Of a stretch of DNA of 64,000 nucleotides, positions 18,274-51,424 are shown one piece after another. Origin of the DNA: Pseudanabaena sp. FACHB-2040. GTDB taxonomy: Bacteria; Cyanobacteriota; Cyanobacteriia; Phormidesmidales; Phormidesmidaceae. Within the stretch, counting starts at the first letter, position 1; every line of letters starts with the position of its first letter. Position numbers and translations under genes: made by a program. The notes under the pieces were generated by a model. That model was given only the letters and a program-made list of their open reading frames with translations. It was not told where the DNA came from and did no database searches. The stretch covers positions 62,001-126,000 of the forward strand of contig NZ_JACJQO010000015.1 in NCBI RefSeq assembly GCF_014696715.1, written 5' to 3'.

Positions 18274-18405
18274 GAGCTTCGCGCATCAGTACGATCGCTC
18301 CTTTATAGAATGCATTACTGCCGAATAGGCGCACCATTATTGCCTATTTAACAAAACTTCAGAAATGTATAAAAACATGTATAAAGTGGGAGGCTTGGCA
18401 GGACA

Positions 18406-18509
18406 TTTGATGAACGCAAAAAATTAACCCGTAGCTACCTCCTAAGCAAGAGTAGGTAGAGGGATTCAGCATAAAATGCTGAATCCCTCTATAATAAAGA
18501 GGTAGTCGC
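18406..18509 (+). promoter_or_regulatory. Leader of repeat unit 1 with 16-bp hairpin
   Basis: The leader shares a long block with that of unit 2, 471 bp downstream, beginning TTTGATGAACGCAAAAAATT. A perfect 16-bp stem with an AAA loop spans 18457-18491, ending 18 nt before the ATG of the small gene; the ribosome binding site AGAGG lies directly after the stem. Three base pairs of the stem differ from the copy in unit 2, and all three are compensated on the opposite arm. TATAAA-like elements upstream (18370-18385) may be promoter parts. Confidence 0.7.
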
Positions 18510-18752
18510 ATGTCTTCTGAATTAGAAGAATTGCTAATCCAGCGAAGCCAAACCTTAGTTCATATTCAGGAACTGCTTGGTCACATTTGCGGATTGATAA
18601 ACCTAATTACCTTGGAAGCTCAGAAAGTTCAGGAGACGGCTCAGAACCGACCCTCTACTTCGGTGGAACCTAGGATCTCGTACACTGGGGTCGAAGATAG
18701 CGCCATTTTCCCAAGCTGCTTGATCAACCCCAATACTGATTTAGACTGTTAA
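18510..18752 (+). CDS. Small paralogous protein, copy 1
   Basis: An 80-aa protein of unknown function. The first ~45 residues are helical and amphipathic (MSSELEELLIQRSQTLVH, LLGHICGLINLI), then a polar linker and a VEDSAI motif near the end. It shares its N-terminus almost exactly with the protein encoded 471 bp downstream, and conservation is higher at the N-terminus than in the linker. Its leader holds a strong hairpin just before the ribosome binding site, so translation or transcription is probably regulated. No signal peptide or membrane helix. It could be a small regulator or dimerising adaptor, but nothing shows this directly. Confidence 0.6.
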   Translation: MSSELEELLIQRSQTLVHIQELLGHICGLINLITLEAQKVQETAQNRPSTSVEPRISYTGVEDSAIFPSCLINPNTDLDC

Positions 18753-18876
18753 CTTCATAAAGCCTACTAGCCCAGCAATACCAACCTAGCCCTTCCTCAG
18801 TGCCTCGCAAACACCCTCACCTCTCATCTCAGCTCCAACTTTAGAGGTATGTGGAGGTGAAAGGCTTAGCGAAACG

Positions 18877-18980
18877 TTTGATGAACGCAAAAAATTAACC
18901 CGTAGTCATCCCCTAAGCAAGAGCAGATAGAAGACTTCAGCATAGGATGCTGAAGTCTTCTATCGTAGAGAGACATTTGC
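18877..18980 (+). promoter_or_regulatory. Leader of repeat unit 2 with 18-bp hairpin
   Basis: This is the second copy of the unit 1 leader, offset by 471 bp. A perfect 18-bp stem with a 3-nt AGG loop spans 18926-18964 and ends 16 nt before the ATG at 18981, with AGAGAG as the ribosome binding site. Compared with unit 1, three stem positions changed together with their partners, while the leader block near the left end is unchanged. Confidence 0.7.
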
Positions 18981-19217
18981 ATGTCTTCTGAACTAAAAGA
19001 ATTGCTAATCCAGCGAAGCCAAACCTTAGTTCATACTAAGGAACTGCTTGGTCGTATCCACGGCTTAATTGACCTAATTGTCTCAGAGGTTCAAAAAGAT
19101 CAGGAGGCAACTCAAGGCCTGCAGTCTGTCCCAGCAGAATCCACCAGCTCGTTTCTTATTTGGGTCGAGGATAGCGCCATTCCCCAAACTGGCCCAATAA
19201 ACCCGACACTGCTTTAG
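18981..19217 (+). CDS. Small paralogous protein, copy 2
   Basis: A 78-aa paralogue of the protein at 18510 (MSSELKELLIQRSQTLVH, LLGRIHGLIDLIVSEVQK, C-terminal VEDSAI). The two proteins differ mainly in the linker. Both open frames are intact and start-to-start spacing is exactly 471 bp, so this is a tandem duplication that has diverged while keeping the frame, which supports real translation. The function is unknown. Confidence 0.6.
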   Translation: MSSELKELLIQRSQTLVHTKELLGRIHGLIDLIVSEVQKDQEATQGLQSVPAESTSSFLIWVEDSAIPQTGPINPTLL

Positions 19218-19416: not shown

Positions 19417-19686
19417 TTAGTAGGCTCTGCGGGCAAAAGCATAGTAGAGCCAAAGAGCAAGAACAGCACCCAGAACTGCAACTACGACGCCGCCGAGACT
19501 CAATCCGGCCGAGGTCAGGGCTAACGTTCCTGTTGTCAGCAGAGCGTACAAGCTACCGCCAATAAAAGCACCCACAATACCCAGGATCAGGGTTCCGACA
19601 ATGCCGCCGCTCTGGTGGCCGGGGTAGATCGCCTTTGCGATCGCACCTGCAATCAAACCTAATACGATCCAAGCCAGAATGTTCAT
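19417..19686 (-). CDS. GlsB/YeaQ/YmgE-family stress membrane protein
   Basis: An 89-aa inner-membrane protein of the transglycosylase-associated (YeaQ/GlsB) family. Three hydrophobic glycine-rich segments are seen (WIVLGLIAGAIAKAI, IVGTLILGIVGAFIGG, VVVAVLGAVLALWLYYAF), and the first ends with the family signature P-G-H-Q-SGG. A GGAGG site is 5-6 bp upstream of the ATG. Family members are induced by general or acid stress; the molecular role is unknown. It is transcribed alone, with its own terminator-like hairpin downstream. Confidence 0.9.
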   Translation of the reverse strand: MNILAWIVLGLIAGAIAKAIYPGHQSGGIVGTLILGIVGAFIGGSLYALLTTGTLALTSAGLSLGGVVVAVLGAVLALWLYYAFARRAY

Positions 19687-50752: not shown

Positions 50753-51322
50753 TCAATCCTGCAGCAAATGGCTGACCAGGAGCTTGAGAAAGAAGAACGG
50801 CAAAAACCATTCCAGTCCGGGCGTGGGGGTAAAGAGATAGCGATCGCCCAACAGCGCCAATCCATAAAGCCCTAAAGCGACCGGGCGCTGAAGATAGAGG
50901 GGCGATCGCAAAATCAAGATCGCCGCCCCCAACAGATAGCCAGACGTACTCAGCCCAAAAACCCAATCCCCTCCTCGAAACAGCACCGCCACCAGCCACA
51001 CATGGATGACATGAAGGGACACAAAGGCCAAATGTTGTTGCCATCCCTGCCCAGGACGGTGATACCACCGCTTAGCAGCAGACGTGGCGTTGGTGAGAAC
51101 ACCTCCCACCAAATCGAGCGCTAACAGCGCGATGAGTCCTATCTGCACCGGAGTCCATTGAATGGGGAGGGTCAGCGCATAGGCCGGAGCCACAATCATC
51201 GCTATTAGAGGCGGCACAAATTGCAGCAGCAGTTCGGCTTTTGTCGCGCCCGGTCCAATGAAGCGATCTAGGAGACCGCCCAATCCGTTGCGGGGCGAGA
51301 TATCCCTCCAGTCCGAACCCAT
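50753..51322 (-). CDS. Six-helix membrane protein of unknown function
   Basis: A 189-aa protein with about six membrane segments (LLLQFVPPLIAMIVAPAYAL, IGLIALLALDLVGGVLTN, LAFVSLHVIHVWLVAVLF, LLGAAILILRSPLYLQ, ALGLYGLALLGD, FFFLKLLVSHLL). The conserved-looking DLVGGVLTNAT and HVIHVW motifs are of unknown meaning. I do not recognise the family. Its promoter overlaps a perfect palindromic operator at 51333-51370, so it is strongly regulated by a local repressor. A ~46-codon TetR remnant lies just beyond the operator. Confidence 0.7.
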   Translation of the reverse strand: MGSDWRDISPRNGLGGLLDRFIGPGATKAELLLQFVPPLIAMIVAPAYALTLPIQWTPVQIGLIALLALDLVGGVLTNATSAAKRWYHRPGQGWQQHLAFVSLHVIHVWLVAVLFRGGDWVFGLSTSGYLLGAAILILRSPLYLQRPVALGLYGLALLGDRYLFTPTPGLEWFLPFFFLKLLVSHLLQD

Positions 51323-51332
51323 ACGGCTACCT

Positions 51333-51370
51333 CACAACAGTTGTTATGTACAAAAATAACAACTGTTGTG
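51333..51370 (-). promoter_or_regulatory. Perfect 15-bp operator palindrome over the promoter
   Basis: CACAACAGTTGTTAT (51333-51347) and ATAACAACTGTTGTG (51356-51370) are exact inverted arms with an 8-bp spacer. On the minus strand TTGACA (51382-51377) and TTATTT or TATTTT (near 51359-51353) form a promoter whose spacer holds one arm; the other arm covers the start. Each arm contains its own short palindrome, as for TetR dimer sites. It controls the membrane-protein gene at 50753-51322. Confidence 0.75.
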
Positions 51371-51424
51371 ATAATGTGTCAACGGGGTTGCCCCTGTTTT
51401 AGTTCTCTTGATAGTCAGCCTTAA

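Follow-up and report, generated by a model that had tools for sequence, protein, structure and literature searches.

A tandemly duplicated small-protein gene of cyanobacteria with long leader hairpins, candidates for cis-acting 5'UTR stem-loops

Introduction

Does a long and perfect hairpin that stands just ahead of a start codon owe its perfection to selection on RNA structure, or can mutation alone account for it? The question is raised by a locus in the 64-kb stretch of cyanobacterial DNA analysed here (the window), in which both copies of a tandemly duplicated small gene carry such a hairpin in the leader and the two stems differ by compensated base changes. Template switching is known to generate perfect stems, and multi-base compensated changes within them, in one event (Monttinen and Loytynoja 2022, PMC8794818). 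We examined the tandem units, their homologues and the frequency of comparable hairpins.

Results

Direct-repeat comparison delimited two units on the forward strand, u1 at 18386-18643, comprising leader, hairpin and ORF start, and u2 at 18857-19114, which are 471 bp apart and share 80% identity across 258 nt. Each has a leader box, TTTGATGAACGCAAAAAATTAACCCGTAG, identical at 29 of 29 positions between copy 1 (18406-18434) and copy 2 (18877-18905), and a perfect hairpin with a 3-nt loop, of 16 bp in u1 (18457-18491, arms 18457-18472 and 18476-18491) and of 18 bp in u2 (18926-18964, arms 18926-18943 and 18947-18964). The hairpins end 18 and 16 nt, respectively, before the ATG of two intact and paralogous frames, ORF 1 of 80 aa (18510-18752), with a conserved N-terminal helix and a variable tail, and ORF 2 of 78 aa (18981-19217). 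The first-pass annotation had described exactly this arrangement of two units at 471-bp spacing, shared leader block, perfect hairpins 16-18 nt before the start codon and undamaged frames of about 80 aa, and our analysis confirmed it throughout.

The small-protein genes are real and belong to a small, undescribed cyanobacterial family. The dN/dS values of 0.13-0.49 over codons 1-42 indicate purifying selection, and the frames are therefore most likely translated and selected, in agreement with the earlier proposal that the proteins are made; the N-terminus, previously noted as almost identical in the pair, is the conserved part of the proteins. No match above the curated cut-off was found in Pfam or NCBIfam and no significant match in PHROGs or PADLOC, in keeping with the earlier remark that no described family fits. 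A third copy in the same genome encodes 59 aa on contig C27, away from the tandem pair, and the same-genus MAG Co-bin13 has one copy at a contig edge; a search of 65 genomes of the family and order yielded no further convincing member. In a class-wide sample of 390 genomes, distant members were found in three genomes (G088, G102 and G115) of one genus from a different cyanobacterial order. These were first detected with the original profile at E-values of 5e-5 to 6e-3, and the later values, as low as 2e-34, were obtained after some of these members had been built into the profile. The family-wide pattern is L/F-E-E-L-L-x-x-R-x-x-T-L-x-x-I, followed by I26 and L29. AlphaFold predicted one helix (residues 2-45) with a disordered tail, with block means of pLDDT between 93 and 99 over residues 1-40, a model that suggests an amphipathic protein of the coiled-coil type; comparison with solved structures returned generic coiled coils only, at E-values of 0.1 or more.

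Weaker profile matches with a C-terminal CxCC tail, in G115 (contigs C5 and C21) and in G054, were excluded from the family: they share its heptad pattern, but they have no hairpin and may not be homologous. Small ORFs with similar heptads that end in a CGCC or CRCC motif (L055 and L105 in G115, L057 in G054) are possibly a separate uncharacterised family, and both of those in G115 lie directly 3' of a response regulator gene. A weak further paralogue in G115 (L104) has no hairpin, and matches in G034 and G066 were rejected as low-complexity repetitive frames.

Family members sit in differing gene neighbourhoods, and searches of phages, plasmids and viral contigs gave no relevant relatives. 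In the window the units have glsB (19417-19686) as a neighbour; at the glsB locus of Co-bin13 (L110 1-1500) a histidine kinase / response regulator gene stands next to it and the small genes are absent, so that synteny of the family does not hold across the genus. The 75-aa ORF preceding the Co-bin13 copy had no relative in the six other genomes searched and offered no clue.

Within the leader, the 29-nt box is better conserved than the hairpin and is the most conserved element. Co-bin13 carries a version of it, TTGATGGACGCAAAAAGTTAA, at the same place (19 of 21 positions matching), and outside these copies the box does not recur within three mismatches in the two genomes searched. It holds ATG AAC GCA AAA AAT TAA, a possible 5-codon uORF (MNAKN*) present in all three boxes, those of u1, u2 and Co-bin13. 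The two differences in Co-bin13 are non-synonymous in the uORF (N to D and N to S), and a ribosome-binding site ahead of it is visible in u1 only. A reading of the box as a promoter was rejected, as no conserved -10 element lies at the proper distance.

The stems of u1 and u2 differ at positions 5, 7 and 8 of their shared 16 bp, a cluster within 4 bp, and each difference is mirrored exactly on the opposite arm, as had been reported from the first inspection; given three changes per arm, exact compensation has a chance probability of 6.6e-5, a value that comes from a single comparison of two tandem copies. RNA folding gave the hairpins z-scores of -4.3 to -6.7. A T-run is missing after both stems, and the hairpins are therefore not intrinsic terminators. 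They account for two of the only three perfect inverted repeats in the window with arms of at least 11 bp and loops of 3-10 nt. The third, at 51332-51371 (16-bp arms, 8-nt loop), lies upstream of a minus-strand ORF (50753-51322), at 9 nt from the start codon, and, each arm of the repeat being palindromic (ACAACaGTTGT), resembles a double operator.

Rfam gave no gathering-level match in the 64-kb window, and between 18200 and 19300 nothing was found at E-values up to 10 for the glutamine riboswitch or Downstream-peptide RNA; at the G088 locus, as in the window, no match was accepted, and weak ROSE and microRNA matches fell far below the gathering score. A search for dispersed REP- or MITE-like copies in the genome found that only u1 and u2 match each other beyond 20 nt.

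The C27 and Co-bin13 copies, the nearest homologues of the tandem pair, both lack the 16-18 bp hairpin. In Co-bin13, a short palindrome, CCCTCTTAAGAGAGGG, lies closer to the box and a bulged stem of 7-8 bp occupies the aligned position; in the alignment of the four sequences the u1 stem pairs in only 67% of cells. Among the distant members, G088 has a perfect 21-bp hairpin, unrelated in sequence to those of u1 and u2, which ends 24 nt before the ATG, its orthologue in G102 has an imperfect stem of 12 bp plus 5 bp with a widely different arm sequence, and the G115 orthologue has no hairpin. Perfect stems of at least 16 bp thus occur in 3/8 family members (u1, u2 and G088), from two lineages, and the five others, the two nearest homologues among them, have no perfect long hairpin. 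The first-pass annotation had concluded that the structure is being kept, and had named homologous copies lacking the hairpin as the finding that would speak against it; C27 and Co-bin13 are such copies. Of the features that it expected of homologues under this view, a conserved N-terminus was found, and the stem gave a mixed picture: compensated between u1 and u2, absent from C27 and Co-bin13, and replaced by different hairpins in G088 and G102.

Comparable hairpins are rare ahead of genes. Perfect stems of at least 16 bp occurred in 0/533 upstream 100-nt regions of long ORFs from G000 and G088, and those of at least 14 bp in 0.4-0.8% of these regions. In the 800 kb of sequence from which the background was drawn, no other perfect hairpin with arms of at least 13 bp was located in the 30 nt that precede the start of an ORF of at least 100 aa; most such hairpins lay in other places, frequently 3' of genes, and some came from a repeated AGAAGCCCGGTTTCT-like family. 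By our own estimate, which takes three lineages at 0.4-0.8% each and rests on a small sample, the recurrence among the distant members alone has a chance of about 0.02. Given this rarity upstream of ORFs, the recurrence is unlikely to be pure chance, although the sample is small.

Two further palindromes were encountered in these surveys. The AGAAGCCCGGTTTCT-type repeat, seen at L060 16971-17003 and 17652-17686 and at L068 635-663, is apparently a dispersed hairpin family of its genome. A perfect terminator hairpin (TGATCAGCGGATAGGC...GCCTATCCGCTGATCA, followed by a T-run) encloses the stop codon of a distant homologue at the 3' end of the small gene, near 1471 on the minus strand of L043 (equivalent to L090 461-497); it is also found in the corresponding part of L046, and the two genomes differ in it by one compensated base-pair change.

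Discussion

We tentatively regard the locus as the tandem duplication of a gene that encodes a small single-helix protein and has a cis-acting stem-loop in its 5' UTR, the best of the readings considered. It is favoured by the placement of the stems 16-18 nt (u1 and u2) and 24 nt (G088) before the ATG, by the excess of perfect stems over the controls, by the retention of a stem in G102 despite a diverged arm, and by the compensation in the tandem pair together with purifying selection on the ORFs; it is weakened by the five members that lack a perfect long hairpin and by the low pairing in the alignment. A function for the hairpin is plausible on these grounds of sequence. We infer a transcribed leader, a hairpin that works at the RNA level and an effect of the hairpin on expression. 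The stem-loop would then lie in the mRNA leader just upstream of the ribosome landing area and would most likely act in cis as a double-stranded element for the processing or protection of the message, setting its stability and start-site access and leaving the ribosome-binding site free. Stopping 16-24 nt short of the start codon, the stems reach the edge of the usual ribosome footprint or lie slightly beyond it, and should therefore not block initiation; with 16-21 perfect pairs, they may serve as RNase III substrates or 5' stabilisers. Stem-loops in 5' UTRs control mRNA stability and processing, examples being ompA-type stabilisers and the RNase III-cut leaders of rnc and pnp. The units resemble these in having a long, stable leader stem outside the ribosome-binding site and no terminator tail, but differ in that the gene is unrelated, leader transcription, cleavage and stabilisation are putative here, and the stem is missing from most homologues.

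The claim that selection keeps the structure is weaker than first held, and covariation between two copies is weak proof of it because template switching can make and perfect stems without selection (PMC8794818). The hairpins could be roleless quasi-palindromes ahead of a real gene, made and kept perfect during replication, a doubtful yet serious possibility and the main rival. The mechanism is documented, and template-switch hairpins described in that work share with ours the perfect stems and multi-base compensated changes, although it is their mutational origin that was described, not a function. The clustering of the three changes in u1 and u2, the sporadic distribution (perfect hairpins in u1, u2 and G088, an imperfect one in G102 and none in C27, Co-bin13 or G115) and the G088 5' arm, which complements its 3' arm exactly where that of G102 has diverged, as if from one copying event, all fit such an origin. 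What it leaves unexplained is why two far-apart lineages of a single small family have the hairpins immediately ahead of the start codon, when hairpins of this kind are rare and mostly elsewhere. Under the cis-acting reading, too, template-switch mutation probably helps to maintain the perfection of the stem.

Other roles appear less probable. The perfect symmetry and the location between leader and start codon would suit an operator in the DNA at which a regulator binds, perhaps the small protein itself, which is predicted to be helical and could be dimeric; this is improbable, for the arm sequences are wholly different between lineages, no DNA-binding domain is recognisable in the protein, and usual operators are far shorter than arms of 16-21 bp with loops of 3-6 nt. 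That the leader is a riboswitch or a peptide-sensing attenuator, with the mini-uORF, the hairpin and then the gene, would suit a box that is the best conserved part of the leader and holds the 5-codon ORF in all three copies, but the amino acid changes in Co-bin13, the ribosome-binding site seen only in u1, the missing U-run after the stem and the negative Rfam search make it more improbable still. The cyanobacterial glutamine riboswitch (glnA / Downstream-peptide RNA; PMC6316151, PMC7760959), reported upstream of small proteins such as IF17, likewise places a structured leader ahead of a small protein in cyanobacteria. It is a multi-stem aptamer, whereas the units here have a single long hairpin and no Rfam match. 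Carriage of the hairpin by a mobile element (REP or MITE) might account for the differing neighbourhoods and for the Co-bin13 glsB locus without units, but is largely refuted by the in-genome search, in which hairpin and leader match nothing else beyond 20 nt, and has no phage, plasmid or viral-contig relatives behind it; the REP or MITE match that had been named as a possible refutation of the linked unit was thus not found, and we give this origin very little credence.

Returning to the cis-acting stem-loop, a more far-reaching version, which we consider unlikely, is that the leader hairpin is free in sequence and fixed in position, rewritten by template switching with its control of the message through double-stranded RNA retained; if true, it would be a regulatory element inherited by structure only. 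The locus adds an undescribed family to the small proteins of cyanobacteria. With two copies 471 bp apart whose stems are compensated, and with orthologues whose hairpin is perfect, imperfect or missing, it also offers a compact natural setting in which selection on RNA structure might be told apart from the mutational perfecting of palindromes.
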